The position numbers and the translations under genes were made by a program. From Casimicrobium huifangae (lineage in GTDB: Bacteria > Pseudomonadota > Gammaproteobacteria > Burkholderiales > Casimicrobiaceae): DNA of 64,000 bases. Numbering within the stretch: position 1 is the first letter of the stretch; each line of letters opens with the position of its first letter. Shown piece after piece: positions 8,844 to 60,052 of the stretch. The notes below the pieces were generated by a model. It worked only from the letters and a program-made list of their open reading frames with translations, had not been told where the DNA came from and did not search any database. The DNA lies in the NCBI RefSeq assembly GCF_009746125.1, contig NZ_CP041352.1, positions 4,386,436 to 4,450,435 of the forward strand. The letters are read 5' to 3'.

Positions 8844-8959
8844 AGCCTTACGCCGAAATCCTTACAGCACAGGGCTTGACGAGGCATTTCCCTTAAAGTC
8901 GACTTGTTGGCGAATGATTACTTCAGCCCTTGTTGAATGGGCATTCTGCGATGAAGCTG
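8844..8959. repeat. ERIC-like palindromic repeat, copy A
   Basis: Most diverged of six related intergenic elements. The left end reads AGCCTTACGCCGAAATC, followed by a degenerate CCTTA...AGGGCT hairpin. The central AAGTCGACTT is at 8896-8905. A right hairpin AGCCC...TGGGC and the end GATGAAGCTGC close the element. The two halves are about equally long around the centre, so the element is an imperfect palindrome. It lies between the amino-acid permease and the sugar dehydrogenase, both on the plus strand. Confidence 0.75.
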
Positions 8960-9015
8960 CACCGGGTTTTCACTGGTGAACGCTTTGTCTCCCGCCAGCC
9001 CAATAGGCCAGCCCA

Positions 9016-9035
9016 AATGCCATGACATTGGCATT
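9016..9035. promoter_or_regulatory. Inverted repeat AATGCCA-N6-TGGCATT, possible operator
   Basis: Perfect 7-bp inverted repeat with a 6-bp spacer (TGACAT), about 106 bp before the sugar dehydrogenase start. The spacing fits a dimeric helix-turn-helix regulator, but I do not recognise the site. The rest of 8798-9141 holds repeat copy A and no credible ORF. Confidence 0.35.
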
Positions 9036-9141
9036 GTGTGCAGTAGACTTCCAGGCGAGCGGCCCACGCCCTGCACTCGCACTGTAGCGTGAGCGACCGC
9101 TGACATCACACCGGGGAATTCAACCCGCTTCGGGAGCAAAC

Positions 9142-10692
9142 ATGACCCGCGCCCATCTGCTGCACATCACCTTCGCGATCGTCACCGCCCTTGCCGCCAG
9201 CACGGCGCACGGCGCCTGCAACTTCGACATTGATCAGGACGGTGCGCTCAACCCCGCCACCGATGGCGTGCTGATCGTTCGCCGGCTGCTCGGCCTTGGC
9301 GGTGCGGCGCTGGTCGCCAATGCCGTCAACCCGGCCGGGCTGCGCACCAGCGCCACGCAGATCGAAAGTCACATCGACAGCATGATTGCCGATCGCAGCC
9401 TGCGTCTGGATGGCAGCGGCAACGCGCCCACGGCGCTGTCTGACGGGCTCATGCTGGTGCGCGCGATGGTCGGTGTGACCGGCACCGGCGTGACCACCCT
9501 GGCGATTGCCGGCACCCCGCCGCGCAACACATGGACGCTGATCCGGCAGCACCTGAACGGCACCTGTGGCGGCGCGTTCGCCAACAACGCCACCGGTCCC
9601 GCCGTGGTCACGCAGTTGCCGGCGACGCTCAGCAGCCCGTGGGGCATGGCATTCCTGCCCGACGGCCGCATGCTGTTCACCCAGCGCGGCGGCAGCATGG
9701 TCATCGTCAGTGCTGACGGCGCCAGCAAGTCCGCCGACATCAATCCGACACTGCCCAATCTCACCTCGGCCGGACAAGGCGGGCTGCTCGATGTCGCGCT
9801 CGACCCCGACTACAACGGCAGCAGCAACACACGCATTTACTGGACGTTCTCCGAGACCGGCAGCGGTGGCTCCGGTACCGCCGTGGCGCGTGGCGATCTG
9901 AACGCTGTCACAGCGACCATCAGCAACGCCCAGGTCATTTACCGGCAAACGCCCAAGGTAGGTGGCGATGGTCACTTCGGCTCGCGCCTCGCGTTTCGCA
10001 GCGACAAGACGCTAATGGTGACGCTCGGCGAACGGCAAACCGATGACCCCGCTGCACCGACCAGCAACAACGCACAACACCTCGGCAAGACCCTCGGCAA
10101 GGTCATCCGCATCAATCGTGACGGCACCATCCCGGCGGGCAACCCGACCTTCGGCACCCCCGGCGCGCTGCCGGAAATCTGGAGCTACGGTCACCGCAAC
10201 CCGCAGGGCGCTTCGATGCGGCCGGGCAGCGACGACCTCTGGCTCACCGAGCACGGGCCGCTCGGTGGCGACGAGCTCAACTTTGTGCAACCGGGGCGCA
10301 ACTACGGGTGGCCGCTGGTGAGCTATGGCTGCCCCTACAGCGCCGGTACCAACACACCCGCCTGTCGCCCGGGCGGCACCGGGGGCGTGCACGCACCGAC
10401 CTACGAAGAGCCGGCCACCACCTGGCTGCCATCATCCACGGCGCCCTCCGGCCTCATCTTCTACAACGGCGGAAAATTCACCGACCTCGGCTGGCAGGGC
10501 AGCGCCTTCACCGGCGGACTCGCAGGCTCGACGCTCTGGCGCATCACACTCAACGGCAACGCATTCGTCGCGAAAGAAGAAGTCACGGTCGTGAAGAACC
10601 TCGGCCAGCGCATCCGCGTGGTCAAGCAGGGGCCGGATGGCTGGATTTATCTCGCCACCGACAGCGGCCAGCTGCTGCGCCTGTGGCGATGA
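9142..10692 (+). CDS. Exported PQQ-type glucose/sorbosone dehydrogenase with N-terminal dockerin-like domain
   Basis: This 516-residue protein has a signal peptide to about residue 26 (STAHG). Residues ~28-130 form a dockerin-like region with two calcium-loop-type repeats, DIDQDGALNPATDGVLIVRR and LRLDGSGN...SDGLMLVRAM, ending in RNTWTLIRQHLNGTCG. The rest is a six-bladed propeller of the soluble glucose/sorbosone dehydrogenase family: WGMAFLPDGRMLFTQR, GGLLDVALDPDY, YGHRNPQG, LWLTEHGP, GRNYGWP. Such enzymes oxidise aldoses with PQQ in the periplasm. The same dockerin-like cassette closes the delta-60 protein at 13403-14866, showing domain shuffling. The start follows a GGGAGC box. Confidence 0.87.
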   Translation: MTRAHLLHITFAIVTALAASTAHGACNFDIDQDGALNPATDGVLIVRRLLGLGGAALVANAVNPAGLRTSATQIESHIDSMIADRSLRLDGSGNAPTALSDGLMLVRAMVGVTGTGVTTLAIAGTPPRNTWTLIRQHLNGTCGGAFANNATGPAVVTQLPATLSSPWGMAFLPDGRMLFTQRGGSMVIVSADGASKSADINPTLPNLTSAGQGGLLDVALDPDYNGSSNTRIYWTFSETGSGGSGTAVARGDLNAVTATISNAQVIYRQTPKVGGDGHFGSRLAFRSDKTLMVTLGERQTDDPAAPTSNNAQHLGKTLGKVIRINRDGTIPAGNPTFGTPGALPEIWSYGHRNPQGASMRPGSDDLWLTEHGPLGGDELNFVQPGRNYGWPLVSYGCPYSAGTNTPACRPGGTGGVHAPTYEEPATTWLPSSTAPSGLIFYNGGKFTDLGWQGSAFTGGLAGSTLWRITLNGNAFVAKEEVTVVKNLGQRIRVVKQGPDGWIYLATDSGQLLRLWR

Positions 10693-10747
10693 CTCCCGCC
10701 ACCGGGCACATGCAAACCTGACATCCCGCTCCAGCGGGCAACGCGCC

Positions 10748-13003
10748 TCAGCCCTTGACGCTCAAGATGATGCCGTACCAGGTACGTGGCCTGCTCACGG
10801 TGTAGGTTGCGCTTTGCAGGCCATACGCGGTGGTGTTCTCGCTCGCCAGCGGTGCCACGTTGTTGGCAACCAGTCGCACTGACATCGTCCGGCCCAGCGG
10901 CACGTTGGCATACAGATCGACGCTGCGCGAGCGGGCGAACTCAATGCTCTGTTCTGCCGTTTGCTGCGTTCGATAGCCGGGTGTGAACGACAGGCTGCCG
11001 CCCATGCGAATCGGGGCTGGCAGCACGCCGGTCAGCATGTAGTCGAGCCCGAACGTGGCCGACCACGGCTGTTGCCGGTCCAGGCGGTTGTCCGGACCAG
11101 GCACGCCACGCACCCGCGACTCATAAAAATTGAGCGATGCACGCAGGTCCAATGGCGTTTTGGTATCGAAGGCAAACGGCAACAGCGTTCCGGCACGACC
11201 GCGGGCTTCCAGCTCAAGGCCGAAGGTGTTCGCCGAGTCGAAGTTCACCGGTCGCGTCACGTAACGTGGCACCGATGCCCACGACACCGTCTCCAGTGTG
11301 GTGCGATTGCGGATCAGATCCTGCACGCGCCGGTAGAACACCGTGGCACTCGCCACGCCGCCGCCCGGGAAATAGCGCTCGTAGGCCAGATCAAACCCCG
11401 TCGCCAGCTCGGGCTTGAGCGTCGGGTTGCCGATGCGGTCGGCGGACAGCGCGTCGTTGGGCCGGGTCAGATCGGTGTAAAGCGAAGACACCTGCGGGCG
11501 AGCGAGCAGCTGCATGGGCTCCGGCGCCTTGAAGGTACTGGTCAGGCTGCTGCGGAACAGATGCTCTCCCTTTTCATCCAGCTTGTACTTCAGGTGAAAC
11601 ATCGGCGTCACAACGCTGGCGGCAACGCTATCCTGTTGGTCACCGACCCCCTTGCTCCGCGTCTCGATGCGCTCGGCGCGCACGCCCGCATACGCAGCAA
11701 GACGCTTGCTCACCTCCCAGTCATCCTGAACGAACAACGCATAGCGCGACACCCGTGCCTCAACGTCCTGGTCTTCGTAGATGGGCAACAAGGGCACGCC
11801 CAGCTCGGTGGTGCGTGAGCGGCCAATCCAGTCGCGCCACTCGAAATTCCAGCCGCCAGTCACCGTATGCGCATCGGCGACCAGCCGCGAGTACTGACCA
11901 CTCAGATTCACCGAGGGGTTTCTGCTTTCGCCGTAGGTCAGGCGACGCTCGCCGCCGTCGCGGAACGCGCGGGCGGTGAAATCGTTGGCGTTGTACTGCA
12001 CGCTGGCTTTCACTTCGAGGCGCTGATCGCCATCGAAGCTGTTGGTGTAAGTCGTACCCAATCTCGCATTGAGCCAGTTGCCAAAGTTGCGCGAATCGTC
12101 GGCGAATACCGGCTGCCCCGAGATCACGCGGCGCTCGGTCGCGATGTCACTCCAGTGCCAGCGGCCCTGATTGATGAATGCCTGGGTGTTGAGCGAGCTC
12201 GCCTCGTCAATCTTCCAGTTGAGCGATGGCGAAAAGTTGTAGCCGCGACCGTGGGGGTGCTGCTCGCTGGACCGGGTGCCAATGGCCGCCGGCGTACTGG
12301 CGCCAGCGGCCGGCGTCGCTGCGGCAACCGTAGTGGTGGTCCGCACGGCGTTGAAGTTGTTCCACTCAAAGTAGGAGAGCGGCAGGTTGAACGCAGTGCT
12401 GCCCTGGATGCGCTCACCCCAGGTGACGTTGAATCCGGCGGCCGGGTTGTCGTACTGGTAGCTCACCCGCGCCTGTGCCTCGACCGTGCGCGAGCGCGGC
12501 GGCTCCTTCAGGATGATGTTGATGGTGCCGCCAATCGCCTCTGCCGTCTGATCTGCAGTGGCCGCACGGGCCACCTCAATCCGCTTCACCTGCGACGGGT
12601 TGAGATTGTTCAGATCGAAGTTGGGCGGCGCCGGTTCGCCGTTGAGCAGGACGCGGGTGTAGCTGCCAAGGCCGCGAAGGGCTGGTCCGCTGCCGCCGAG
12701 ACTGACACCTGGCAAGCGCTTAAGCACATCGTTGACACTCACGTCGCCGAATTTCTGAATCTCCTCTTCGTCGTAAATCTGCTTCGCTGCGGTGGACTGT
12801 CGGCGAAGTTCGACCGTGGTCTGCGGGCGCGCGCTCAGTTCCACGCGCTCGATGCGCTGCGCGTTCGGCGTTTCCGTCGGTGACTCGTTGTTGGTCTGCG
12901 CGGCAATCTGCGTGCAGGCAATGGCGGACAACACAGCCGCTACGCCGGTTGTGTTGCTCGCGCGGACAAGGCGGCGAGTATGAGAAGAAGAATTCACTGG
13001 CAT
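10748..13003 (-). CDS. TonB-dependent outer-membrane receptor
   Basis: This 751-residue receptor has a signal peptide ending near residue 40 (IAAQT). The plug domain is shown by VSVNDVLKRLPGVSLGG, ALRGLGSYTRVLLNGEPAPP and VKRIEVARAATADQTAEAIGGTINIILK. A ~550-residue beta-barrel follows, ending in a beta strand (YGIILSVKG). The ATG at 13003 is chosen because it begins the signal peptide; an in-frame ATG at 13183 would add 60 residues of unlikely composition. The ligand is unknown: no siderophore or vitamin genes adjoin. It converges on the sugar dehydrogenase with a 55-bp gap. Confidence 0.9.
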   Translation of the reverse strand: MPVNSSSHTRRLVRASNTTGVAAVLSAIACTQIAAQTNNESPTETPNAQRIERVELSARPQTTVELRRQSTAAKQIYDEEEIQKFGDVSVNDVLKRLPGVSLGGSGPALRGLGSYTRVLLNGEPAPPNFDLNNLNPSQVKRIEVARAATADQTAEAIGGTINIILKEPPRSRTVEAQARVSYQYDNPAAGFNVTWGERIQGSTAFNLPLSYFEWNNFNAVRTTTTVAAATPAAGASTPAAIGTRSSEQHPHGRGYNFSPSLNWKIDEASSLNTQAFINQGRWHWSDIATERRVISGQPVFADDSRNFGNWLNARLGTTYTNSFDGDQRLEVKASVQYNANDFTARAFRDGGERRLTYGESRNPSVNLSGQYSRLVADAHTVTGGWNFEWRDWIGRSRTTELGVPLLPIYEDQDVEARVSRYALFVQDDWEVSKRLAAYAGVRAERIETRSKGVGDQQDSVAASVVTPMFHLKYKLDEKGEHLFRSSLTSTFKAPEPMQLLARPQVSSLYTDLTRPNDALSADRIGNPTLKPELATGFDLAYERYFPGGGVASATVFYRRVQDLIRNRTTLETVSWASVPRYVTRPVNFDSANTFGLELEARGRAGTLLPFAFDTKTPLDLRASLNFYESRVRGVPGPDNRLDRQQPWSATFGLDYMLTGVLPAPIRMGGSLSFTPGYRTQQTAEQSIEFARSRSVDLYANVPLGRTMSVRLVANNVAPLASENTTAYGLQSATYTVSRPRTWYGIILSVKG

Positions 13004-13402
13004 GGATAGAAAAAAGTTCACACGCAACGCGCGCAAGAGGCTGATGTTTCGTTCGCGATCAGGCGGGCACCAAGCGACGCCCGACGAGTCAACGCCACTA
13101 ACAGCAGTCGACTCAGCGAGGCAACAGACGCCGCACACACATTGGGCCGCAGCAGGCGCTGCTGCGGAATGCGTACCGCGCACGAATAGTAGCCGCTCAG
13201 CGCGGCATTCAGAACCGTGGCGCTAGTAGCGAACAAAGACGGAAGGGGCTAGGGTTAGCTCAGCCTGACCCCTGTAGTTGCCGTTCGAGCGCGCAGGCGG
13301 AAGGGCTTGGGCATCGTGTGGCGATCAGGAGCCCGTTTCAATTTGAGTCGACATGGCTACGACCATTGGCGGATGGCGCTTCGCATATCAACGCTCGCTA
13401 GC
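13004..13402. other. Intergenic stretch without a recognised gene
   Basis: These ~400 bp hold the upstream region of the TonB receptor and the end of the delta-60 gene, both on the minus strand. I see no credible ORF. One imperfect inverted repeat, GGGGCTAGG...CCTGACCCC near 13237-13264, could help end transcription of the delta-60 gene but has no T-run. No riboswitch or known operator was recognised. Confidence 0.5.
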
Positions 13403-14866: not shown

Positions 14867-14931
14867 ATCGCGACGATCCTTTGCAACGCTAAGGCTCAAA
14901 TTTACTCGAGTGCATGATCCCCTCTACCAGT

Positions 14932-15951
14932 TCAATCACTCCCCACCCGCGCCAACACGCCTTCATCATTCGCCGCCTGCGCCGCTGCTTCGATGGAGCG
15001 TAGCCACGGATCGCGGGCGACGCCGCCGTAGGTTTCAACCAGGAAGTCGAGGAACACGCGGGTGCGGGCGGGGATGTGCATGCGGGTGGGCATGGCGGCG
15101 TAGATGCTGGTGGTCATCACGCGCCATTCGGGCAGCACGCGCTCGATGCGGCCGCCGCGTAGCGCGTCCTCGACGACGAAGGAGGGCAGGGCGGTGATGC
15201 CCATGTCTGCAAGGGCTGCGTGATAGAGCGTGTCCCAGTGCGCCGTGGATAACGCCATCGGCGGCTGCTCCAGCGTCACCGGCTTGCGGCCTTTCTCACC
15301 GGCGGCACGATGGATGGCGGAGCGCAACGGGCAGGGCTCGAACGTGGTCTGCTTGTTGCCGTCGGGTGAGAAGGGCAGCAGCCATTCATGGCCGAACAAC
15401 TCCTTTGGGTCACTGGGGCGACCGCAACGATCGAGATAGGCCGGCGTGGCGCAGGTGATCATCTCCGAATGCGCCAGCAGTCGCGCGACGAAGTTGCCCG
15501 TCTGCAGCGGCTGCTTGAGAGTGAGGATGGAGATGTCGTGGCTGTCGTCCACCGCCTCCACGCTGTTTTGCACGGTGAGCTCGATGGTGAGCTTGGGGTA
15601 TTGCGCGCGCAGCCGCGGCAGATGCTTGGCGAGCTGGTGCACGGTGAACGCCGGTGAGGCGAGCACGCGCACCACGCCGCGCGGCTCGGCGGTCTCGAGG
15701 TTGGCCGCAGTCTCGGCGTCTTCGATGTCGGCAAGGATGCGTTGCACGCGCTCCAGGTAGCGCTCGCCTGCCTGCGTGAGCGCGAGGCTGCGCGTGGTGC
15801 GGTTGAGCAGGCGCACGCCGAGGTGTTCCTCCAGCTCGGCCACCAGCCGGGTGACGACGGCCGGTGCGAGGTCGAGCTTGTCGGCAGCCTTGGTGAAGCT
15901 GCCTTCATCAACGACTTTGGCGTAGACGCGCATGGCGCGGAGTTGGTCCAT
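14932..15951 (-). CDS. LysR family transcriptional regulator
   Basis: This 339-residue cytosolic regulator has the LysR winged-helix at residues 1-60 ([20 protein letters not shown], then [22 protein letters not shown]). An effector-binding domain follows to about residue 300 ([28 protein letters not shown]). The tail of about 30 residues after the last domain strand is longer than usual. The target is not obvious. The divergent gene is the small exported peptide at 16246, about 294 bp away, and the AT-rich stretch 16010-16080 between them is the likeliest binding region. Confidence 0.93.
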
Positions 15952-16672: not shown

Positions 16673-16791
16673 ACGACTTTTTATTGAAAGCCCCATTGGC
16701 AATGGGCTAAATCATCATTTTCGGCACAAGTTGACTAGAGGTGTTTTCCGGCTGCCAGCCCTTATCAAATAAGGATTCAGCCAAAAAGCTG
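16673..16791. repeat. ERIC-like palindromic repeat, copy B
   Basis: The left end is GACTTTTTATTGAAAG. The first hairpin CCCCATT-GGC-AATGGG is perfect. The centre AAGTTGACTA (16728-16737) has one change from AAGTCGACTT. The second hairpin CCCTTAT-CAA-ATAAGG and the end CCAAAAAGCTGC follow. It lies between the DUF4148 terminator and nadD, with ~33 bp left before the nadD start. Confidence 0.85.
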
Positions 16792-24044: not shown

Positions 24045-24162
24045 CAACTTTCCAACGAAAGCCTTATTGGCAATGGGCTGGACAGTCCAAATAGCGGCAG
24101 ATCGACTTTTGCATAAAACTGCACTCTAGCCCAATGCAAATGAGGCTTCTGACAAAAAGCCA
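24045..24162. repeat. ERIC-like palindromic repeat, copy C
   Basis: The left end is AACTTTCCAACGAAAG. The first hairpin is GCCTTATTGGCAATGGGC. The centre AGATCGACTTTT is at 24099-24110. The second hairpin is GCCCAATGCAAATGAGGC, and the end is TCTGACAAAAAGCC. It sits just upstream of the 153-residue gene and downstream of the beta-barrel gene, both on the minus strand. Confidence 0.85.
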
Positions 24163-26186: not shown

Positions 26187-26239
26187 GGTTTGGCCTTATT
26201 TATGCGGTTTGGTAGCGATCTTTGCGCCACCGACAACTA

Positions 26240-26255
26240 CTGTGCATTTGCACAG
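26240..26255. promoter_or_regulatory. LexA (SOS) box upstream of uvrA
   Basis: CTGTGCATTTGCACAG is a perfect palindrome of the CTG-N10-CAG form used by LexA in gamma- and beta-proteobacteria. It is centred ~75 bp before the uvrA ATG and ~60 bp before pepE. A weak -10-like TACACT follows at 26265-26270. The location before uvrA, a classic SOS gene, supports the call. Confidence 0.8.
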
Positions 26256-26321
26256 CTTTACCGATACACTGCACATTCTCGCGCAAAGCCCGTTGCGCGG
26301 CCTGCCTTACCCCCGCTTTCC

Positions 26322-29300
26322 ATGCCTGCATCTGCCCCGTCCCGCAAGCGCAAATCGGTTGCGCCCGCGCTGCCCGCGAACGTCACCGCACTCGCCACGA
26401 CTGACATCCGCATCCGCGGCGCGCGCCAGAACAACCTCAAGAACCTCGACCTCGACATCCACACTGGTGAACTGACCGTGGTGACCGGCGTGTCGGGCTC
26501 GGGCAAGTCGTCGCTGGTGTTCGACACGCTCTACGCCGAAGGGCAGCGGCGCTACGTTGAGACATTCTCGCCTTATGCGCGGCAGTTCCTCGACCGCATG
26601 GACAAGCCGCAGGTGGACCGCATCGAGGGCATCCCGCCTGCCATCGCGATTGACCAGACCAATCCGGTGCGCACCTCGCGCTCCACGGTAGGCACCATGA
26701 CCGAGGTGAATGATCACCTCAAGCTAATGTTCGCCCGCTTCGCAGCGCTGCATTGTCAGGGCTGCGGGCAACCGGTGCGGCAGGATACGCCGGATTCGAT
26801 TTACATAGACCTCAAGCTGCGGGCGGCAAAGGCTGATGATCCGCGTCTCGCGATCACCTTCCCGGTGACCGTGCCGGAGAACTTCAAGGAAGCCGAGGTC
26901 GAGCAGTTCCTCTCGGCACAGGGCTACACGCGCGTACATAGCCAGGAGAAGCGCGACGGCGTCACCGTGATGCATGTGGTGCAGGATCGCATGCGCATCG
27001 GTACTGCGGAGAAGGCACGCGTGATGGAGGCGCTGGAAGCCGCGCTGCTGCACGGCAAGGGACGGACAAACGTCTTTGTGCTGGACGGCGACGCGGCGAC
27101 ATGGCGCTATTCGGCCGATCTGCACTGCGCTGCCTGCGACATCACCTACAGCGATCCACATCCGTCTTCGTTCTCGTTCAACAATCCTCTAGGTGCCTGC
27201 GAGACCTGCCGTGGCTTCGGGCGGGTGATTGGTGTTGATCTGGGGCTGGTGATTCCGGATGAAGGCAAAACGCTGGCCGAAGGCGCGATCAAGCCGTGGC
27301 AGACCGCGAGCTTCAAGGAATGCCAGGACGATCTGAAGAAGTACATGACGGCCCGCAACATCCCCATGGATGTGCCGTTCCGCGATCTCGGGCCGAACGA
27401 CCGCCGCTACATCGTCGAAGGTGACGACACCTGGCGCTCATGGGAGAAGGACGCCAACAAGAGGTGGTACGGCGTGATGCGTTTCTTCGACTGGCTGGAG
27501 TCGAAGGCGTACAAGATGCACATCCGCGTGCTGCTGTCGAAGTACCGCGCCTACACACCTTGTAACGCCTGTGAAGGCGCCCGGCTGAAGCCGACGTCGA
27601 TCAACTTCCGGCTTGGATCGAAGGCCAATGCCGACGCCGTGTTGCCACCTGGCAAACGCTTTTCACCCCGCCACTTCAAGTTTGAGCGCAGCACGCTGGA
27701 AGCGCTGCCCGGCCTCACCATTCACGATCTGATGCTGTTGCCGATCGAACGGTTGCGACAATTCTTCGCCACGCTGGACTTTGCTGCGGTGGGCGCCGTG
27801 ATGGATGAAGCGGGCGAGCTGGTGCTTGGCGAAGTGCGGTCGCGGCTCGGCTATCTGTGCGACGTGGGGCTTGGCTATCTCACGCTCGACCGCCAGAGCC
27901 GCACGCTCTCGGGCGGCGAAGTGCAGCGCATCAACCTCACCACTGCGCTCGGCACTTCGCTCACCAACACGTTGTTCGTGCTGGACGAGCCTTCCATCGG
28001 CCTGCATCCGCGCGACATGACGCGCATCATTGGCGTCATGCAGCGGCTCAAGACGGCCGGCAATACGCTGGTGGTCGTGGAACACGATCCGCAGATCATG
28101 TTCGCGGCGGATCGCCTGCTGGATGTCGGCCCCGGCCCCGGCGAGCGCGGCGGCAACATCATCTTCGATGGCGCACCGCGCGAGCTGGCGAGCACGCGGG
28201 ATTCGCGCACTGCGGCCTATTTGCTGGGACGGGAGCGGCTGACGCGAAAGCGGCGTATTCTCCCCTCCCCCCCGGTGGGGGAGGGGCAGGGGGAGAGGGG
28301 GACGGCGACCACCTCATCCAACTTGGCGAGAACGAGCCAAGGTCACCCTCTCCCCAACCCCTCTCCCCTCAAGGGAGAGGGGCTCGACTGCATCACCCTC
28401 ACCGGCGCCCGCGAGAACAATCTCAAAGGCATCGACGTGCAGTTTCCGCTGCGCGGGCTGGTCACGGTCACCGGCGTCTCCGGCTCCGGCAAGTCAAGCC
28501 TGGTGCAGGACATTCTGGTGCCGGCGCTGTACAAGGTCAAGGGCAAGACGACCGATGCGCCGGGTACCTACGATCTGCTACTCGGACACCAGAACATTGA
28601 TGATGTGGTGTTTGTCGACCAGTCGCCGATCGGCAAGTCGTCGCGATCCAACCCGGCGAGCTTTGTCGGCGCCTTTGACGCGATCCGCGCCATCTTCGCC
28701 AAAGCTGCGGTCGCCGTTGAGCGTGGCTACACGCAGGGCACCTTCAGTTTCAACGCCGGCAACGGCCGCTGCCCGACCTGCTCCGGTTCCGGCTTTGAGC
28801 ACGTCGAGATGCAGTTCTTGTCCGACGTTTACCTGCGGTGCCCCGATTGCGATGGTACCCGCTTCCGCGCCGAAGTGCGCGAGGTCAAAGTCAACGACAA
28901 AAGCATCAGCGACATGCTGGAGCTGACCGTCAGCGAGGCGATTGCGTTCTTTGCTGACATCAAGGGCGGCGCCGAGGTGTTGCGCACCCTGCAGCCGCTC
29001 GCGGATGTTGGTCTCGACTACGTGCGCCTCGGGCAGCCGGTGCCAACGCTTTCCGGCGGTGAGGCGCAGCGCCTCAAACTGGCCGGGCATCTGGCCGAGA
29101 GCGCCGGTCCGGACGGCGGGCGCCCGATTGCGATGCTGCCCCGTCGCATCAAACCGGAAGACCCGACCAAACCGCGCGGCAAGCTGTTCGTGTTCGACGA
29201 GCCGACCACCGGTTTGCACTTTGACGACATCGCCAAGCTGCTCGCTGCCTTCGACAAGCTGCTCGATGCCGGGCACTCCATTGTGGTTATTGAACACAAT

Positions 29301-32249
29301 CTCGATGTGATCAACGCCAGCGACTGGCTGATCGACCTTGGCCCCGAAGGCGGCGACGCGGGCGGCGAGGTGATCTTCACCGGCACGCCAGATGCAATCC
29401 GTCGCGACAGGCGTTCGCACACTGGCAAGGCACTCAACGACTATGACCGTGATCTGGCTTCGCTGGCTGAATCAACGCGCACGCTGAAGGCCGCCGAGCC
29501 GCGCGGCACCTATCTGCATCGCGCCGTCGCGCGCAACATCAGCGTACTGCATGCCCGTGAGCACAATCTGAAAAACGTGAGCGTGGAGATTCCGGCCAAG
29601 GGCTTCACGGTCATCACCGGACCGTCCGGCTCTGGCAAATCGACGCTGGCGTTCGACATCATCTTCAACGAGGGTCAGCGCCGCTACCTTGAGTCACTCA
29701 ACGCCTATGCACGCCAGTTCGTTCAGCCCTCGGCGCGCCCGGACGTGGACGCCATTCACGGCATTCCACCAACAGTCGCAATCGAGCAGCGCGTATCACG
29801 CGGCGGGCGCAAGTCGACCGTCGCCACGCTGACCGAGATCTATCACTTCCTGCGTCTGCTCTGGATGAAGCTCGGCACCCAGTATTGCCCGACCTGCGAC
29901 GTGCCCATCGAGCCGCAGTCGCTCGATGCCATCGCCGCACGGGTCATGAAGGAATGCAAGGGCAAGCACGCGACGATCCTTGCACCGCTGGTGGTCAATC
30001 GCAAGGGGCTCTACACCGATCTCGCCAAGTGGGCCAAAGGTAAGGGCTTTGTACATCTGCGGGTGGATGGCGAGCTGATCCCGGTCGCGCCGTGGCCCCG
30101 CCTTGATCGCTTTGCCGAGCACAACATTGAACTGCCGGTTGCTACCGTTGAGGTAGCGGCAAAGGGCGAGAAGGACCTCCGCGCCGCGCTGGTGTCGGGC
30201 CTCGACTACGGCAAGGGTGTGGTGCAGGTGTTGTCGTGGAAGAAGGGCAGTGAGGAGGCCGAACTGACGGTGTTTTCCACCAAACGAGCCTGCCCAAGCT
30301 GCGGCACCAGCTTCGCCGAGCTTGATCCCCGGCTGTTCTCCTTCAACAGCAAGCATGGCTGGTGTACCAGTTGCCAGGGCACTGGCGAAAGCGTCAAGGG
30401 CTTCAAGCGTGATGATCGTGTCAGCGAAGAATTCGCCGACCGCGAGCTGGACGCCTTCCTCGACGCGAAAGAAGCGTTCGAGCTTTGCACGTCATGTGAG
30501 GGCGCACGACTGAACCCGGTGGCGCGCAACGTGCGCTTCCGCGAGCAGGGCATTCATGCGGTCGTTGCGCATTCGGTGATCGATGTTGAGCGCTTCGTGA
30601 ATGTGTTGAAGCTCTCTGTACGCGAGGAAGAAATTGCGCGCGACATCCTGGTGGAAGTGAAATCGCGGCTCGCATTCCTGCAGGAGGTAGGGCTCGGCTA
30701 TCTCACGCTGGACCGCTCGGCGCCGACGCTCTCTGGCGGCGAGGCGCAGCGCATTCGCCTGGCCGCGCAGCTTGGCTCCAACCTGCAGGGTGTTGCCTAT
30801 GTGCTTGACGAACCGACCATTGGCCTGCATGCGCGCGACAACCGCATCCTGCTCGACACGCTGGAGAAACTGCAGGCCAAGGGCAATACGCTGGTGGTCG
30901 TCGAGCACGACGAGGACACCATCAAGCGCGCGCACCACATCATTGACCTTGGGCCAGGCGCAGGCGTGCGCGGCGGCGAGATTGTTGCCGAGGGAACCGC
31001 TGCGGAGCTGAAGGCGAACCCGAAGTCGATCACCGGCCGCTTCTTGAAGAAGCCGCTCGCGCATCCGCTACATCAGCGTGCGCCGGTTAGCAAGAATGAC
31101 GCCGCCATTGCGGTGAGTGGCGCCAATCTGCACAACCTGAAGAATGTCTCGACCTCGCTGCCGCTCGCGCGTCTATCCGTGATCACCGGCGTCTCCGGTT
31201 CCGGCAAATCGACACTTGCGCGCGAGGTGCTACATGAAAATCTGCAGGCGCTGGTAGCGGCGCGCAACACGAGGAAAAAAGCACCCGCACTCACCGGCTG
31301 CAAATCGCTGACCGGCTGGGAGGATGTGGATCGGGTGCTTGAGGTTGACCAGACGCCCATTGGCAAGACACCGCGCTCCTGCCCGGCCACTTATATCGGC
31401 TTCTGGGACAACATCCGCAAGCTCTACGCCGAGACCTCCGAGGCGAAGATGCGCGGCTACGGCCCAGGTCGCTTCTCGTTCAACACTGCCGGCGGCCGCT
31501 GCGATGTCTGCGCCGGGGCCGGCATGGTAACGGTGGAAATGAACTTTCTGCCCGACGTGAAGCTGCCGTGCGACGTCTGCAACGGCGCCCGCTTCAACAG
31601 CGAGACGCTGTCGGTGCTGTGGCGTGACAAATCCATTGGTGACGTGCTGGCGATGGACGTCGACGACGCGGTCGATTTTTTCGCAACGATGCCGTCCATC
31701 CATCATCCGCTGAAGCTCATGCAGGATGTGGGGCTGGGCTATCTCACGCTGGGGCAACCGAGCCCGACGCTCTCCGGCGGCGAGGCGCAGCGCATCAAGC
31801 TGGTCACCGAGCTCGCCAAAGTGAAAGAGACTTTTGCGCTCACTGCAGGCGATTTGCCCGCGCCGACCAAGGCAGCCGTCGCCCGAGCGAAAAAACTGGC
31901 CGCCAGTGGGCAGGCAACTGCCTCCGCGCCTGCTGGTCGCAGCGCCGGCCAGCGCCGCCTCAACCCGCACACGCTGTACGTGCTCGACGAACCGACGGTT
32001 GGCTTGCATATGGCGGACGTGGAGAAGCTGATCCATGTGCTGCACCGGCTGGTCAACGCCGGCAACACGGTGATCCTGATCGAACACAACCTCGACCTCA
32101 TCGCCGAAGCCGACTGGATCATCGACATGGGTCCGGAGGGCGGCACCGGCGGCGGCACGGTGGTCGTCGCTGGCGACGTGCCGACGGTGCTCAAGGCAAA
32201 GGCGAAGTCACATACTGGCGCGGTGTTGTCGGAGTTTTTGCCGGCTTAA
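26322..32249 (+). CDS. uvrA: Double-length UvrA-like excinuclease ABC subunit A
   Basis: This 1975-residue protein is about twice the size of normal UvrA (~940). UvrA recognises damaged DNA with UvrB in nucleotide excision repair. Four ABC nucleotide-binding domains are visible: Walker A loops near residues 56, 718, 1100 and 1623, and LSGGE signatures near 529, 910, 1470 and 1817. Each half has its own zinc-type cysteines (CQGCGQ and CPTCSGSG in the first; CPTCDV and CDVCAGAG in the second) and the UvrA start GARQNNLKNLDL. The two halves are diverged, so the fusion is old. A repeat has entered the first half at 28259-28384. ATG 26322 is chosen; 26190 is in frame but would include the SOS box. 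Confidence 0.9.
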   Translation: MPASAPSRKRKSVAPALPANVTALATTDIRIRGARQNNLKNLDLDIHTGELTVVTGVSGSGKSSLVFDTLYAEGQRRYVETFSPYARQFLDRMDKPQVDRIEGIPPAIAIDQTNPVRTSRSTVGTMTEVNDHLKLMFARFAALHCQGCGQPVRQDTPDSIYIDLKLRAAKADDPRLAITFPVTVPENFKEAEVEQFLSAQGYTRVHSQEKRDGVTVMHVVQDRMRIGTAEKARVMEALEAALLHGKGRTNVFVLDGDAATWRYSADLHCAACDITYSDPHPSSFSFNNPLGACETCRGFGRVIGVDLGLVIPDEGKTLAEGAIKPWQTASFKECQDDLKKYMTARNIPMDVPFRDLGPNDRRYIVEGDDTWRSWEKDANKRWYGVMRFFDWLESKAYKMHIRVLLSKYRAYTPCNACEGARLKPTSINFRLGSKANADAVLPPGKRFSPRHFKFERSTLEALPGLTIHDLMLLPIERLRQFFATLDFAAVGAVMDEAGELVLGEVRSRLGYLCDVGLGYLTLDRQSRTLSGGEVQRINLTTALGTSLTNTLFVLDEPSIGLHPRDMTRIIGVMQRLKTAGNTLVVVEHDPQIMFAADRLLDVGPGPGERGGNIIFDGAPRELASTRDSRTAAYLLGRERLTRKRRILPSPPVGEGQGERGTATTSSNLARTSQGHPLPNPSPLKGEGLDCITLTGARENNLKGIDVQFPLRGLVTVTGVSGSGKSSLVQDILVPALYKVKGKTTDAPGTYDLLLGHQNIDDVVFVDQSPIGKSSRSNPASFVGAFDAIRAIFAKAAVAVERGYTQGTFSFNAGNGRCPTCSGSGFEHVEMQFLSDVYLRCPDCDGTRFRAEVREVKVNDKSISDMLELTVSEAIAFFADIKGGAEVLRTLQPLADVGLDYVRLGQPVPTLSGGEAQRLKLAGHLAESAGPDGGRPIAMLPRRIKPEDPTKPRGKLFVFDEPTTGLHFDDIAKLLAAFDKLLDAGHSIVVIEHNLDVINASDWLIDLGPEGGDAGGEVIFTGTPDAIRRDRRSHTGKALNDYDRDLASLAESTRTLKAAEPRGTYLHRAVARNISVLHAREHNLKNVSVEIPAKGFTVITGPSGSGKSTLAFDIIFNEGQRRYLESLNAYARQFVQPSARPDVDAIHGIPPTVAIEQRVSRGGRKSTVATLTEIYHFLRLLWMKLGTQYCPTCDVPIEPQSLDAIAARVMKECKGKHATILAPLVVNRKGLYTDLAKWAKGKGFVHLRVDGELIPVAPWPRLDRFAEHNIELPVATVEVAAKGEKDLRAALVSGLDYGKGVVQVLSWKKGSEEAELTVFSTKRACPSCGTSFAELDPRLFSFNSKHGWCTSCQGTGESVKGFKRDDRVSEEFADRELDAFLDAKEAFELCTSCEGARLNPVARNVRFREQGIHAVVAHSVIDVERFVNVLKLSVREEEIARDILVEVKSRLAFLQEVGLGYLTLDRSAPTLSGGEAQRIRLAAQLGSNLQGVAYVLDEPTIGLHARDNRILLDTLEKLQAKGNTLVVVEHDEDTIKRAHHIIDLGPGAGVRGGEIVAEGTAAELKANPKSITGRFLKKPLAHPLHQRAPVSKNDAAIAVSGANLHNLKNVSTSLPLARLSVITGVSGSGKSTLAREVLHENLQALVAARNTRKKAPALTGCKSLTGWEDVDRVLEVDQTPIGKTPRSCPATYIGFWDNIRKLYAETSEAKMRGYGPGRFSFNTAGGRCDVCAGAGMVTVEMNFLPDVKLPCDVCNGARFNSETLSVLWRDKSIGDVLAMDVDDAVDFFATMPSIHHPLKLMQDVGLGYLTLGQPSPTLSGGEAQRIKLVTELAKVKETFALTAGDLPAPTKAAVARAKKLAASGQATASAPAGRSAGQRRLNPHTLYVLDEPTVGLHMADVEKLIHVLHRLVNAGNTVILIEHNLDLIAEADWIIDMGPEGGTGGGTVVVAGDVPTVLKAKAKSHTGAVLSEFLPA
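28259..28384. repeat. G/C-run palindromic repeat inserted in frame within uvrA
   Basis: About 126 bp of C-rich and G-rich runs interrupt uvrA between its first and second ATPase domains. The left arm (CCCCTCCC...GGGGGAGGGGC, 28261-28300) and right arm (CCCTCTCCCC...AAGGGAGAGGGG, 28346-28382) are inverted copies. Translated, it reads PSPPVGEGQGERG, a short linker, then PLPNPSPLKGEGL, the product of a repeat type known from many proteobacterial intergenic regions. The reading frame stays open, so it adds ~42 residues (about 646-688). Confidence 0.8.
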
Positions 32250-36245: not shown

Positions 36246-36363
36246 CAGCTTTTTAGGTAATCCCTTATTTATTGAGGGCTAGAAGTGCATTTAGTGTCAA
36301 AGTCGACTTTTGGCCGATTTATGCCCGAGCCCATACCCACTGGGGATTTCGTGCAAAAGATGA
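36246..36363. repeat. ERIC-like palindromic repeat, copy D
   Basis: The left end is CAGCTTTTTAGGTAA. The first hairpin is CCCTTATTTATTGAGGG. The centre AAGTCGACTTTT (36300-36311) is perfect. The second hairpin is CCCATACCCACTGGGG and the end GTGCAAAAGATGA is degenerate. It lies between divergent DUF3079 and periplasmic-binding-protein genes. The remaining ~97 bp up to 36461 show no other feature. Confidence 0.85.
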
Positions 36364-48871: not shown

Positions 48872-48873
48872 CC

Positions 48874-52683: not shown

Positions 52684-52716
52684 GACGTTGTCTCCAGGTC
52701 TGGTCGGTATTCGGTA

Positions 52717-53918: not shown

Positions 53919-53981
53919 GCTGCATATTCCGTTGTGGTCACGGAAAAGTTCCCAACGAGTGATGATGGATGGTCAGGATCG

Positions 53982-54100
53982 ATGGCTTTTTACGGAAACG
54001 CCCATTCAATATGGGCTCATGTGAGAAATCGGTGCAAGTCGACTATTGATCAAAATGCCATTTGAGCCATTGATAAATGGGCGTTTTGGAAGAAAGCTGC
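53982..54100. repeat. ERIC-like palindromic repeat, copy E
   Basis: The left end is GGCTTTTTACGGAAAC. The first hairpin is GCCCATTCAATATGGGC. The centre AAGTCGACTA (54036-54045) is close to perfect. The second hairpin is GCCATTGATAAATGGGC and the end is GAAGAAAGCTGC. A small extra hairpin (CGCCCT-CAGTC-AGGGCG, 54104-54120) follows at once. It lies between the divergent sigma factor and TonB receptor genes. Confidence 0.88.
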
Positions 54101-54213
54101 TAACGCCCTCAGTCAGGGCGATATGCACCAACAACCGTCCTCATGCGCCGCCAGCAGGCGCTTCAAACGCCCTGATGCGGCAAGTTTGCGACACCCGGAG
54201 TCTGCTTTTCCGG

Positions 54214-54231
54214 TTTGTAACCCGGCTGTCA
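54214..54231 (+). promoter_or_regulatory. Tentative PhoB box upstream of TonB receptor 2
   Basis: TTGTAAC (54214-54220), CCGG, CTGTCAT (54225-54231) matches PhoB half-sites at 5/7 and 7/7. Another partial heptamer, CTGTGGA, lies 22 bp on, in the same phase. No clear -10 stands ten bases after. If real, it would place the receptor and nucleotidase in the Pho regulon. It is the weakest of the four boxes. Confidence 0.4.
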
Positions 54232-54293
54232 TTGCATTGCACAAAAGCTGTGGAATATTTGAACGCTGTCAGTCCAAAAAACCGGGTGCATCC

Positions 54294-56726: not shown

Positions 56727-56780
56727 TCACGCCCGGTTGACGGGTGCCGCACCACCTTGCGGCACCACTGAAACTCCCTC

Positions 56781-56811
56781 AAGCCGCGCCACAAGCGCGG
56801 CTTTGTTTTTT
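56781..56811 (+). terminator. Intrinsic terminator after TonB receptor 2
   Basis: AAGCCGCGC-CACAA-GCGCGGCTT followed by TGTTTTTT, 55 bp after the receptor stop and 27 bp before the nucleotidase start. It makes separate messages, or partial read-through, likely. Confidence 0.9.
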
Positions 56812-56837
56812 GCAGGTCTGTACACAGGTCGATCATC

Positions 56838-58928
56838 ATGCAACTGCTCTTTCGCTCCCGCCCGTCACTGTCACGCACCGCCCGCGCCGCCGCGCTGACG
56901 GCACTCGCCGCTGCAACCACTCTTGCGCTGCTCGCAGGTTGTGCGACACCCGCAGGAACCGGCACGACGACGCCGGTCGCCCGCATCGCCGATGGCACGA
57001 AGGCGCAACTGGCGCTGCTGGAAACCACCGACCTGCACACCAATGTCCTGTCCTACGACTACTACAAGCTCGGCGAGGACCGCAGCATCGGCTTCGAGCG
57101 CACCGCGGCACTGATCGCGGCGGCGCGCAAGGAGTTCACCAACACGCTGCTGTTCGACAACGGCGACACCATTCAGGGCACCGCGCTTTCGGACTATCAG
57201 GCGCAGGTGAAGCGCCTGGGCTGCGATGAAGTGCTGGCGATGTACAAGGTGATGAACGCGCTTGGCTACGACGCCGGTGGCATCGGCAATCACGAGTTCA
57301 ACTACGGCCTGTCATTCCTGTCGCAAGTCACCGGCAACCGCTTCAACGTAGACCTGCGCCCCGGCGAGCAGGCAATCCCGGCGCAACCTTGCGCCGGGCC
57401 GAACTTTCCGCTGGTGCTGGCGAACGTGCTTTCGGTGAAAGATCGCAAGCCGCTGTTCAAACCCTACGTCGTGCTGGATCGTTCACTCAAAGTAACCACT
57501 GTTGATGGCAAGACGGCCGACGCACCGATCAAGGTGGGCGTTATCGCGTTCACGCCGCCGAAGATCCTCGACTGGGACAAGCGCTGGCTCAATGGCGTCG
57601 TCTACACCGATGGCATCAAGGAACTGGCTGAGCAATACATTCCCGAAATGAAGGCGCAGGGCGCCGACCTCATCGTTGCCATCTCGCACGGCGGGCTCGA
57701 CGCCAACCCCTACACGCCGTCGATGGAGAACGCCAACTGGCATCTGGCCCAGGTGAAGGACGTGGATGCCATGCTGATCGGGCACTCGCACCAGACCTTC
57801 CCGAATGCAGCGAGCACCATGAACCAGTTCAACCTGCCCAACGTCGACAAGGCGAAAGGCTTCGTGCATGGAGTGCCAACCGTGATGGCGAACTTCTGGG
57901 GCAAGACGCTGGGGGTGATCCAGTTGCAACTGGTGGCTAAGAATGGCCGCTGGTCGGTCGACAGGACGAAGACCGTAGTTGAGGCGCGCAACATCCAGAA
58001 CGCGGACCGCAGCTTCGTCACACCGCTGCCCGCGGTCGCCGAGACAGTGCGAGCCGAACATCAGGCCACCATCGACTACGTGAAAACGCCGATCGGCAGC
58101 AGTGACTTCGCGATGACCTCCTACTTCGCCGACGTTGGCGATGTATCCGCGATGCAGATCGTGAACATGGCGCAAACCGATTACGTGGCGAACTACGTGA
58201 AGCAGACCATGCCGCAATTCGCCAGCCTGCCGGTGCTCTCCACCGCCTCGCCGTTCAAGACCGGTTTTGCCGGGGGTGCCGACTTCACCGATGTCGCCGC
58301 CGGTCCGATCGCGATCAACAACGCCGCCGATCTGTACCTGTTCCCGAACACGCTGTATGCGGTGAAGGTTGATGGCGCCGGCCTCAAGGCCTGGCTCGAA
58401 GCTGCTGCCCGCCGCTTCAACCAGATTGATCCCGCGCGCACCACCGAGCAATCGCTGACCGGCACGGCCCCCGGCTACACCTTCGACATGCTGACCCATC
58501 CCGACATGAGCTACGAGATTGACGTCAGCAAACCCTTCGGTTCCCGCATCGTGAACCTGTCCTACAAAGGCACCGCGGTATCGCCGTCGGCCGAGTTCAT
58601 CGTTGCCACCAACAACTACCGCGCCAGCGGCGGCGGCAACTTCCCGGGACTCGACGGCAGCAAGACCATCTTCGCCTCGCCCGACACCAATCGCGAAGTG
58701 CTGATCAATTACGTGAAAGCCGTGAAGACTCTCAGCCGAGCCGCCCACGGCAGCGCGCGCAGCTGGCGTTTCGTCAAGTTCGCCACGGCAGGCCCGGTGG
58801 TGTTCAAGTCGGCACCAGGCAAAGTCGCGGTCGCACAGGCCGCCGGCATCAACAACATCCGCGAGCTTCGCGCCGATGATGGTTCCGGCAAGGGCCTCGC
58901 GGTGTATGCGATTGATTTGTCGAAGTGA
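56838..58928 (+). CDS. 5'-nucleotidase / 2',3'-cyclic phosphodiesterase lipoprotein (CpdB-like)
   Basis: This 696-residue protein starts with a lipoprotein signal (ALLAGCATP, lipid cysteine near residue 34). The metallophosphatase domain follows: LLETTDLHTNVLSYDYYK, LFDNGDTIQGTALSDY, GIGNHEFNYGL, VAISHGGLD and IGHSHQTFPN. A C-terminal nucleotide-binding domain follows (YLFPNTLYAVKVDGAGLKAWLE, ATNNYRASGGGNFPG). CpdB enzymes hydrolyse 2',3'-cyclic nucleotides and 3'-nucleotides to nucleosides and phosphate in the periplasm. Length and layout favour CpdB over UshA. Confidence 0.88.
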   Translation: MQLLFRSRPSLSRTARAAALTALAAATTLALLAGCATPAGTGTTTPVARIADGTKAQLALLETTDLHTNVLSYDYYKLGEDRSIGFERTAALIAAARKEFTNTLLFDNGDTIQGTALSDYQAQVKRLGCDEVLAMYKVMNALGYDAGGIGNHEFNYGLSFLSQVTGNRFNVDLRPGEQAIPAQPCAGPNFPLVLANVLSVKDRKPLFKPYVVLDRSLKVTTVDGKTADAPIKVGVIAFTPPKILDWDKRWLNGVVYTDGIKELAEQYIPEMKAQGADLIVAISHGGLDANPYTPSMENANWHLAQVKDVDAMLIGHSHQTFPNAASTMNQFNLPNVDKAKGFVHGVPTVMANFWGKTLGVIQLQLVAKNGRWSVDRTKTVVEARNIQNADRSFVTPLPAVAETVRAEHQATIDYVKTPIGSSDFAMTSYFADVGDVSAMQIVNMAQTDYVANYVKQTMPQFASLPVLSTASPFKTGFAGGADFTDVAAGPIAINNAADLYLFPNTLYAVKVDGAGLKAWLEAAARRFNQIDPARTTEQSLTGTAPGYTFDMLTHPDMSYEIDVSKPFGSRIVNLSYKGTAVSPSAEFIVATNNYRASGGGNFPGLDGSKTIFASPDTNREVLINYVKAVKTLSRAAHGSARSWRFVKFATAGPVVFKSAPGKVAVAQAAGINNIRELRADDGSGKGLAVYAIDLSK

Positions 58929-58956
58929 TTGCGGCAACGGTTTCATGCCCTCACCG

Positions 58957-59110
58957 CTCTCTCCGTTTGTGGTGACCCTTCGACTCCGCTCAGGAGTAAA
59001 CGCCGCGCTCGCCACTCTCTCCGTTCGTGGTGACCCTTCGACTCCGCTCAGGAGTAAACGCCGCGCTCACCACTCTCTCCGTTCGTGGTGAGCTTGTCGA
59101 ACCATGAACG
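58957..59110. repeat. 58-bp tandem palindromic repeat, 2.6 units, reaching a start codon
   Basis: Two near-identical 58-bp units (58957-59014, 59015-59072) each read CTCTCTCCGTT..GTGGTGACC, then CTTCGACTCCGCTCAGGAG, then TAAACGCCGCGCTC. A third unit stops after GTGGTGA and ends with a palindrome CGTTCGTGGT...ACCATGAACG (59080-59110). The ATG of the Sel1 gene is inside that last arm. The CTTCGACTCCGCTCAGG core is a dispersed repeat type seen in many proteobacteria. Confidence 0.8.
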
Positions 59111-59916
59111 CTAACCAATGCCGTCCGGTCGTGATCGCGCTGCTCGCGCTCTGCGCCTGCTCGCCCGTAGCCTCGATGGAACGCAGCGCCGTCGAGGACT
59201 CTGTGACTGCTCCACGGGTAAGGCCCCTCGATTCCGCTGCGCTCCATCGAGGCTACAAAGCGGATGATCCGGCGCACATTGATCGGCTGCGCATGGCCGC
59301 CGACGCAGGGCGCGACGATGCGGCATTGCAAACATTGACAGCGTTTGCGGGCGCTGGCAACGTGGCGGCGCAGCGGGCAGTTGGAACCACGCTGCTCGCC
59401 CGTGGCGACGCACGATCAGACGCTGAGGGCCGCCGCTGGCTGACGCTCGCGGCCGCGCAGGGCGACGCACCGGCAGCCTTGCATCTTGGCCGCGCCTGCC
59501 TGCGCGATTCGCCAGCGGCGCCGCGCAGCGAAGCGCGGGCGCGCGAGTGGCTGCTCAAGGCCTATGCACAGGACGTCACGCGGGCGCAAGCTGCGTACTA
59601 CCTGGGCTTGCTTGCCCGCACGAACGATCCACCGCAGGCGGCCGCGTACTTCCGCGAAGCGGCGGAGCAGGGCGTCGCCGAGGCAATGTATCTGCTCGGC
59701 AACGCCAGCGCGGCGGGCGAAGGTATCGATCAGGACCCTCGCGAAGCCATGCGCTGGTATCTGCGCGCTGCCGCACTGGATCACCCGGCTGCGATCCAGG
59801 AGCTAGCCTTCGCCTTCCAGCGTGGCGACACCCTGTTGCCGCAGAGTGATCTGCAGGCGGCCAACATGCGGCTGGCAATGGAGCACGCGCTGCGGCATCC
59901 AAAAGCCGCACCGTAG
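59104..59916 (+). CDS. Exported Sel1-repeat (TPR-like) protein
   Basis: This 270-residue protein has a hydrophobic start (VVIALLALCACSPVAS), perhaps a lipoprotein signal with a poor lipobox. From about residue 58 it has Sel1-like repeats of ~36 residues: AAQRAVGTTLLARGDARSDAEGRRWLTLAAAQGDAPAALHLG, YFREAAEQGVAEAMYLLGNASAAGEGIDQDPREAMRWYLRAAAL. Such repeats bind partner proteins. Residues ~22-51 are encoded by an inserted palindromic repeat (59168-59255). The start codon itself lies in another repeat, so the true start could differ. Confidence 0.78.
   Translation: MNANQCRPVVIALLALCACSPVASMERSAVEDSVTAPRVRPLDSAALHRGYKADDPAHIDRLRMAADAGRDDAALQTLTAFAGAGNVAAQRAVGTTLLARGDARSDAEGRRWLTLAAAQGDAPAALHLGRACLRDSPAAPRSEARAREWLLKAYAQDVTRAQAAYYLGLLARTNDPPQAAAYFREAAEQGVAEAMYLLGNASAAGEGIDQDPREAMRWYLRAAALDHPAAIQELAFAFQRGDTLLPQSDLQAANMRLAMEHALRHPKAAP
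59168..59255. repeat. Palindromic repeat inserted in frame in the Sel1 gene
   Basis: TAGCCTCGATGGAACGCAGCG (59168-59188) is matched by an inverted copy at 59235-59255 with one mismatch in 21. The intervening 46 bp keep the frame open, so the gene gains ~29 residues (about VASMERSAVEDS to ALHRGYK). The arm CCTCGATGGA / TCCATCGAGG is typical of dispersed intergenic repeats. Confidence 0.8.
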
Positions 59917-59933
59917 CACCGTCTCTGGTGCAT

Positions 59934-60052
59934 CAACTTTTACGTGTGAAGCCCACCGTATAAGGGCTTGGCCGGCAAAACATCGAAAAGTCGGCTTTTA
60001 CCGTTTTTGCCACCTGAGCCCTTATACAATGGGGCTTCCAGCAAATAGCTGT
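59934..60052. repeat. ERIC-like palindromic repeat, copy F
   Basis: The left end is AACTTTTACGTGTGAAG. The first hairpin is GCCCACCGTATAAGGGC. The centre AAAAGTCGGCTTTT (59987-60000) has one change. The second hairpin is GCCCTTATACAATGGGGC and the end is AGCAAATAGCTG. It lies between the convergent Sel1 and DUF5648 genes. Confidence 0.87.

Follow-up and report, generated by a model that had tools for sequence, protein, structure and literature searches.

What is an imperfect palindrome of about 117 bp doing six times over within 64 kb of a bacterial chromosome? The stretch in question, referred to below as the window, comprises 64,000 nucleotides of Casimicrobium huifangae (Burkholderiales), positions 4,386,436–4,450,435 of a single-contig genome of 4,465,898 bp. 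The original prediction, made from these letters alone, likened the six copies to the ERIC and MITE (miniature inverted-repeat transposable element) families in logic and suggested that their hairpins were under selection for structure. Here we show that they belong to a genome-wide DNA motif that is conserved in position and under selection. Several of its features point to protein binding, and we conjecture a role in chromosome architecture.

A large family of dyad-symmetric intergenic sites

All six copies were found within 1 bp of the places first assigned to them, and on either strand each is matched by a covariance model at E between 1e-15 and 2e-18, the next-best match in the window being at E 3.9. 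The test is partly circular, since the same six copies, with their reverse complements, went into the model, which served solely to find copies. In the whole genome it gave at least 150 matches at E≤0.001, nearly every place on both strands, from 885 first-look candidates, while the core AAGTCGACTTTT with at most one mismatch occurred 111 + 95 times against 9 + 4 for the reversed pattern. In a C. huifangae sample of 864 kb, an nhmmer profile from 43 distinct copies located 67 places with E<2e-6 (best reversed-control E 4.7; three more places at E 0.46–1.7 were dropped), and a refined profile located 73 places in 924 kb of contiguous sequence, with none at E<1e-4 in the reversed control. The copies thus align above chance, and the covariance search turned up many more of them in this genome and in congeners, as expected of a real family. 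By extrapolation there is about one copy per 12.7 kb, or roughly 350 per genome; the copies are dispersed, as predicted, at a measured density of one per 12–13 kb rather than one per 10 kb. All three long stretches that were sampled (near the window, at 2.0–2.2 Mb and at 3.0–3.4 Mb) contain copies, and none of the 67 has its centre inside a called open reading frame (ORF), non-called DNA making up 17.7% of the sample.

Leaving aside five partial matches, the 67 places hold 62 full-length copies, 27 of 118 bp, 23 of 117, nine of 116, two of 115 and one of 119. From the outside inward each half-site carries CAGCTTTT, GAAA, a middle box GCCC-ATT..AT-GGGCT, a step made up only of A/T some 13 bp from the centre, and at the centre itself AAAGTCGACTTT, a palindrome around TCGA; halves come mainly in two lengths, 58 bp (43 of 124) and 59 bp (78 of 124). 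The shared plan, the length of about 117/118 bp, the intergenic position and the mixed orientation of neighbouring genes, all first described from six copies, therefore hold over many. Summed over the symmetrised alignment, without small-sample correction, the motif carries about 88 bits, and conservation varies between columns from 0.01 bits (random) to 1.91 bits (nearly invariant) at nearly constant length. At half positions 46–47 of the 78 halves of 59 bp, about half the letters are A and half are T, with C and G at no more than 0.01 each, and the step is mostly a run of one or the other (TTTT in 16 and AAAA in 14 of the 78). The composition spectrum peaks at 8.0 and 10.0 bp, with less power at 10.5–11.

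If pairing between the arms were selected, the arms of one copy should pair better with each other than with those of different copies, and they do not. In a whole-arm swap of 44 rows, one of them a duplicate, within-copy pairing gave 1227 pairs against a swapped mean of 1241 (sd 19), and 772 of 1000 swaps were at least as good. A repeat gave z 0.35 for the 62 C. huifangae copies and −0.04, −0.34 and −0.26 for the relatives G012, G006 and G010 (the last with 31 rows, one place being held twice). For the middle box alone, the corresponding values were −0.32, 0.79, 1.76 and 1.57, all overstated since each copy enters in both orientations, and pairing inside single arms showed no excess in C. huifangae copies. 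Mutual information (MI) between columns is high for neighbours, reflecting the A/T runs, and weak yet above the null beyond 10 bp; columns far apart are nearly independent between copies. Within-copy pairing no better than between-copy pairing argues for a DNA–protein site and not a hairpin, and the earlier proposal that hairpin bases vary while pairing is kept under selection does not survive the comparison. On these sequence tests, the element is a DNA site rather than an RNA hairpin.

Conserved positions, saturated letters

Positions are retained between species. On a 145.6-kb contig of the relative G011, 12 C. huifangae elements fall in collinear sequence and 11 of them are partnered, one pairing being less sure as it bridges an 11-kb difference and depends on a partial match. 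Counted from the G011 side, 11 of 14 are partnered; of the other three, two are in 12.9 kb without alignment to C. huifangae and one is beyond the chain. Where both flanking genes are orthologous and adjacent in G011, G012, G006 or G010 (G002 was excluded and is taken up below), 12 of 13 gaps with an element keep one in the relative, whereas of the 43 gaps that are element-free in C. huifangae the relative has one in 1 (Fisher 3e-10). Counted as gaps with the element in both, in C. huifangae only, in the relative only and in neither, the figures are 7/0/0/18 for G011, 3/1/1/13 for G012, 1/0/0/7 for G006 and 1/0/0/4 for G010, or 12/1/1/42 in total, with G011 carrying most of the weight. A looser test, requiring at least one orthologous flank and run without a control, matched C. 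huifangae elements in G012 (7 of 8), G006 (6 of 8), G010 (1 of 3) and G002 (0 of 8), one relative element being counted twice in each of G012 and G006.

The gap upstream of nadD gives a similar picture across the genus. The C. huifangae profile finds an element there at E<1e-8 in six of the 14 relatives with a located nadD (G001, G013, G005, G004, G011 and G015) and weakly, at E 0.0005–0.005, in G007, G006 and G012; profiles made from the species themselves confirm it in G012 (E 6e-21), G006 (1e-13) and G010 (5e-20). Overall, nine of the 14 have the element upstream of nadD and a tenth has it weakly, while none was seen at this place in G002, G008, G009 and G016.

The letters at these fixed positions have largely diverged. 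In the 11 orthologous pairs, low-information columns are identical in 30.4% of cases, against 30.2% between non-orthologous copies, and high-information columns in 71.6% against 66.7%. Purifying selection on a motif held at fixed places would be the natural reading of this pattern. Two missing orthologues were inspected. The G011 gap (C75:68508-68810) looks like a loss because it keeps an outer-box remnant, ATCAGCTTTTTTCTG, next to GC-rich repeated sequence that is possibly an inserted repeat, and a 119-bp gap in G012 holds other sequence in which nothing element-like is recognisable. An apparent absence of a 42-kb stretch from G011 is not claimed here, as its first block matches several places in C. 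huifangae and sits at a contig end, and the G011 contig probably just starts there.

Even spacing between transcription units

Elements are spaced too evenly for chance in all five species tested. Against a null that draws called gaps of at least 105 bp at random from the same orientation class, the coefficient of variation of spacing was 0.57 in C. huifangae (null mean 0.93; 0 of 3000 draws), 0.62 in G011 (0.88; p 0.006), 0.53 in G012 (0.83; p 0.02), 0.58 in G010 (0.85; p 0.010) and 0.49 in G006 (0.85; p 0.0003). In four of the five, short spacings are fewer than expected; in C. huifangae 4 of 70 fall under 4 kb where 17 are expected, and the fifth species, G012, has 1 of 15 against 3.1 expected (p 0.11).

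Among adjacent gene pairs of C. huifangae and G011 together, convergent pairs have an element in 30 of 156 cases, divergent pairs in 28 of 154 and co-directional pairs in 52 of 695, counts somewhat blurred by an ORF caller that misses atypical genes such as one of 563 aa. The elements are placed as if between transcription units, with no preference for promoter or terminator sides. An apparent preference for convergent gaps (50 of 102 against 117 of 635) appears in gaps of at least 105 bp only and conditions on gap length; we set it aside, convergent and divergent pairs being equal over all pairs.

Range and species dialects

The nearest relatives by NadD are seven betaproteobacterial (Burkholderiales) metagenome assemblies at 82% to 60% identity, the next being at 36%. 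The covariance model, which represents the C. huifangae dialect and was applied with strict filters, matched at E≤0.001 in this species and 12 of 16 congeners and in none of 43 genomes of other genera. A pattern of the plan, the outer GCTTTT and central TCGA at fixed distances, was found in 13 of the 17 members of the genus, where copies number up to 115, and as a single copy in 2 of 47 genomes from the rest of the family. In a sample of the order outside the genus it gave single matches in 9 of 393 genomes, and the reversed control matched in 8 of 393. This pattern misses the element-rich G006, so that other dialects outside the genus could escape it, and it found no match in G016 and G009, of which little sequence was examined. 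With probes biased to some dialects, the element has been seen only in this one betaproteobacterial genus.

Profiles built for single species, in which the best control scored E 1.1 or weaker, recovered elements of unchanged plan but different middle boxes, with 17 copies in G012 (CGACcgcc..gCGGtCGTT), 30 in G006 (cGCCCaATTTaATTGGGCgA) and 30 distinct copies in G010 (AAtGCC.tATgAAATAaGGg). Read by eye, the CGAC..GTCGTT type also occurs in G007 and G003 among the matches listed, out of 75 and 70. Each middle box is palindromic about a shared centre, with the best i+j at 64 in G012, G006 and G010 and at 63, then 64, in C. huifangae, and pairing left halves with the right halves of their own species ranked first of the 24 possible assignments among the four. 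Sequence comparison indicates that species share the plan but differ in the middle palindrome, which has been rewritten. In a five-protein tree, for which G003 and G014 data are incomplete, the CGAC type falls in G012 and in G003 + G007, which are not sisters, with support of 68–98 at the separating nodes.

Some 58-bp halves of C. huifangae itself (for example in L040, L046 and L050) have middle boxes that lean to the CGAC..GG.C type of G012 and G007, and dialects may mix within one genome.

Candidate anchors of the chromosome

We suggest, with somewhat better than even confidence, that the elements are anchor sites for a protein complex that divides the chromosome into units of about 8–13 kb. 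A symmetric assembly of proteins, placing one dimer on either middle palindrome, would bind the site and probably bend or wrap it, and hundreds of such complexes 8–13 kb apart might, less certainly, act as chromosome anchors or topological insulators that would keep transcription-driven supercoils within small domains. As the specificity of the reading protein drifts, the middle boxes would drift into species dialects and the sites be re-tuned in place. Symmetric change between species together with independence within species is the trace that such a dimeric protein of drifting specificity would be expected to leave. The palindromic protein sites matS and parS organise chromosomes; they measure about 13–16 bp and are regional, whereas the element is about 118 bp long and occurs in all three long stretches sampled. 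An anchor or insulator of the kind proposed for the BIMEs of E. coli (PMC6907758) would agree with how long and dyad-symmetric the element is, with its A/T steps and its even spacing, and with its location between transcription units.

More tentatively, and at rather less than even confidence, these may be a class of chromosome-architecture site not described before. On this view large nucleoprotein sites with dyad symmetry, hundreds per genome, would lie at even intervals and in locked positions between transcription units. A dimeric protein particular to the genus, its specificity changing, would read their middle palindromes, and the whole set would be rewritten in place, one dialect (AACGAC..GTCGTT) having arisen or come back in separate lines of descent. 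In the literature on regularly spaced or palindromic intergenic repeats, nothing resembled the element by title and the start of the abstract, most subscription papers falling outside the coverage. As the identity of bacterial supercoil-diffusion barriers is stated as open in a review (PMC6907758), several hundred alignable, evenly spaced candidate anchors per genome, together with natural dialects, would make the question of supercoil barriers testable.

Several observations weigh against an anchoring role. The in-place rewriting of hundreds of sites is hard to explain gradually. The relative G002 has only 3 copies in 236 kb and lacks the element in both gaps where C. huifangae has one (0/2/0/8 in the order used above), so that the function would be dispensable or replaced there. 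Left middle-box halves of C. huifangae match the right halves of G006 as well as their own (0.40 against 0.39), and MI for columns 11–58 apart lies slightly above the null (z 2.9–3.2), indicating some subtype structure among the copies. In high-information columns orthologues are slightly more alike than non-orthologues (p 0.006), divergence being incomplete there. Across five species, 6 of 181 elements lie inside called ORFs (5 of 27 in G006 and 1 of 39 in G011), possibly through caller error, and selection might retain elements at even spacing on other grounds.

A sequence-specific protein might instead use these sites in a role other than architecture, such as global regulation, the timing of replication or segregation, or DNA uptake. 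This is unlikely in our judgment, although all of the evidence for a DNA site fits it equally and uptake sequences of other bacteria also have species dialects; convergent gaps as rich as divergent ones argue against promoter regulation, the even spacing is a further difficulty, and the length and symmetry of the element exceed those of known uptake sequences.

The nearest alternative, to which we give a little less weight still, is that these are genome-encoded strong sites for DNA gyrase, comparable to the strong gyrase site of phage Mu or to BIME-2, which would offer gyrase an entry point every ~10 kb. Like the E. coli gyrase motif and the Mu site, the element is symmetric, with an extent near their 120–130 bp and phased A/T; the 130-bp E. 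coli motif, with its suggested indirect readout, and the cutting of BIME-2 by gyrase in vivo are described in PMC6379681. The A/T-only steps, a composition period near 10 bp and the location between transcription units agree with such a role. On the other hand, the spectrum peaks at 8.0 as well as 10.0 bp with less power at 10.5–11, where E. coli has 10.75, the element has specific boxes stronger than the degenerate gyrase motif, and species dialects would be unexpected for a conserved enzyme.

Signs of mobility

As far as sampled, and judging from sequence, the element is not a currently mobile repeat; the comparison with ERIC and MITE elements was right as to a repeated, dyad-symmetric, intergenic family and finds no support as to mobility. 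That the element is an ancient ERIC/MITE or REPIN-like family, once dispersed by a transposase and by now in decay or replicating slowly, seems improbable to us. In its favour the element is palindromic, intergenic, present in hundreds of copies and seen in one genus, the genome encodes RAYT-like proteins, and some origin by copying would seem unavoidable for so long a motif. The conserved positions, the sharply unequal conservation of columns and the even spacing argue against it. No target-site duplication was evident at lengths of 1–29 bp (z at most 1.2; 59 of the 62 copies), and an apparent flank identity at offset 127 in a first scan (z 1.7–2.3) was gone with the 59 copies. Among the 43 distinct copies, of an estimated ~350, pairwise identity in the better orientation reached a maximum of 67% with a mean of 54%, the one 100% pair being the same place fetched twice.

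Comparison with known families leads in the same direction. Like the enterobacterial ERIC (IRU) elements, the element is an intergenic, dispersed imperfect palindrome of similar length; ERIC, however, is 127 bp with TA termini and target duplications (PMC2229807), whereas the element is 117/118 bp, is flanked by AT rather than TA (A 0.68 then T 0.49 in 59-bp halves), shows no duplication signal or near-identical copies among those compared, and keeps its positions. Correia/NEMIS and other MITEs are likewise short, dispersed inverted repeats, described as having mostly TA ends, target duplications and known empty sites, and some of them a protein-binding site (PMC2229807); the element lacks the duplication signal and the TA ends, and had no clean empty site in the two missing orthologues inspected.

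REP, BIME and REPIN repeats share with the element inverted units that each contain an imperfect palindrome, and REPINs persist long-term (PMC8049555). Four Y1_Tnp (RAYT-like) matches were found in the genome, three of them over the Pfam cut-off, near 4154873, 2013791, 3570710 and 3283946 of the contig, each gene lying among GTAG-headed inverted repeats of a different family. No match to the element occurs within about 1.5 kb on either side of any of the four, and its outer consensus, (A)(T)CAGCTTTT, is not a GTAG-type head tetranucleotide; we therefore reject a RAYT/REP link. The element differs further in being evenly spaced, in lacking hairpin covariation, and in that its spacer columns hold conserved boxes where REPIN spacers are described as highly diverse.

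The four RAYT-like genes with their own repeat families amount to several REPtron-like loci in one genome. G002, which is poor in the 118-bp element, has inverted repeats of about 106–110 bp with GTAGG..TGCAAT arms, resembling REPINs of another family (L144:2951-3056 and L151:15062-15171). The only pair of elements 2.1 kb apart (L158:10412-12597) flanks the 563-aa ORF missed by the codon-usage caller, possibly acquired cargo; a composite transposon was considered for this stretch, which has one match in the genome and shows no sign of it.

Folding of single copies

Three of the six window copies fold well below their shuffles (z −4.9 to −6.1) and the other three at z −0.8 to −2.1, scores that we attribute to dyad symmetry. 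Covariance along the long hairpin was looked for with RNAalifold in the six copies and their reverse complements; both sides changed in 4 of 16 pairs, the covariation term was unfavourable (+0.79), and the candidate was rejected. No Rfam family reached its gathering threshold in the window; the six copy loci gave one match weaker than that, at E 0.41, for a family of miRNA. The well-folding copies, the four changing pairs and the frequent closeness of elements to gene ends might speak for a transcribed hairpin that stabilises mRNA, marks a processing site or terminates transcription. Such an RNA-level role is very improbable, given arms without within-copy covariation in four species, the overstated middle-box values (z at most 1.76), the three copies that fold poorly and divergent gaps as element-rich as convergent ones. 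Dispersed palindromes should not automatically be taken for mobile elements or hairpins, and arm-swap and ortholog-saturation tests can separate the cases.

The six copies in the window

Table 1. Element copies in the window and labelled parts of copy 2 (positions are those of the window).
Feature	Position	Strand	Remarks
Element copy 1, 117 bp	8843..8959		Co-directional gap, amino-acid permease gene / GSDH-family gene
Element copy 2, 118 bp	16674..16791		Upstream of nadD
Element copy 3, 118 bp	24045..24162		Co-directional gap; copy between corresponding alignment blocks in G011
Element copy 4, 117 bp	36246..36362		Divergent gap, DctP gene / periplasmic-binding-protein gene; copy between corresponding G011 blocks
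Element copy 5, 117 bp	53983..54099		Divergent gap upstream of TonB-dependent-receptor-like gene (label from a match below NCBIfam cut-offs); present in G011, G012
Element copy 6, 118 bp	59934..60051		Convergent gap, Sel1-repeat gene / 558-aa gene; no copy detected in the orthologous G012 gap (119 bp)
Left outer box, copy 2	16674..16681	+	Reads CGACTTTT; family consensus CAGCTTTT; mirrored at other end
Left middle box, copy 2	16690..16708		GCCCCATTGGCAATGGGCT, imperfect palindrome; between-species variable part; limits approximate
Central palindrome, copy 2	16726..16739		Family consensus AAAAGTCGACTTTT

The window contains no tRNA gene, and among its other features is an ORF of 2019 aa at positions 26190-32249.

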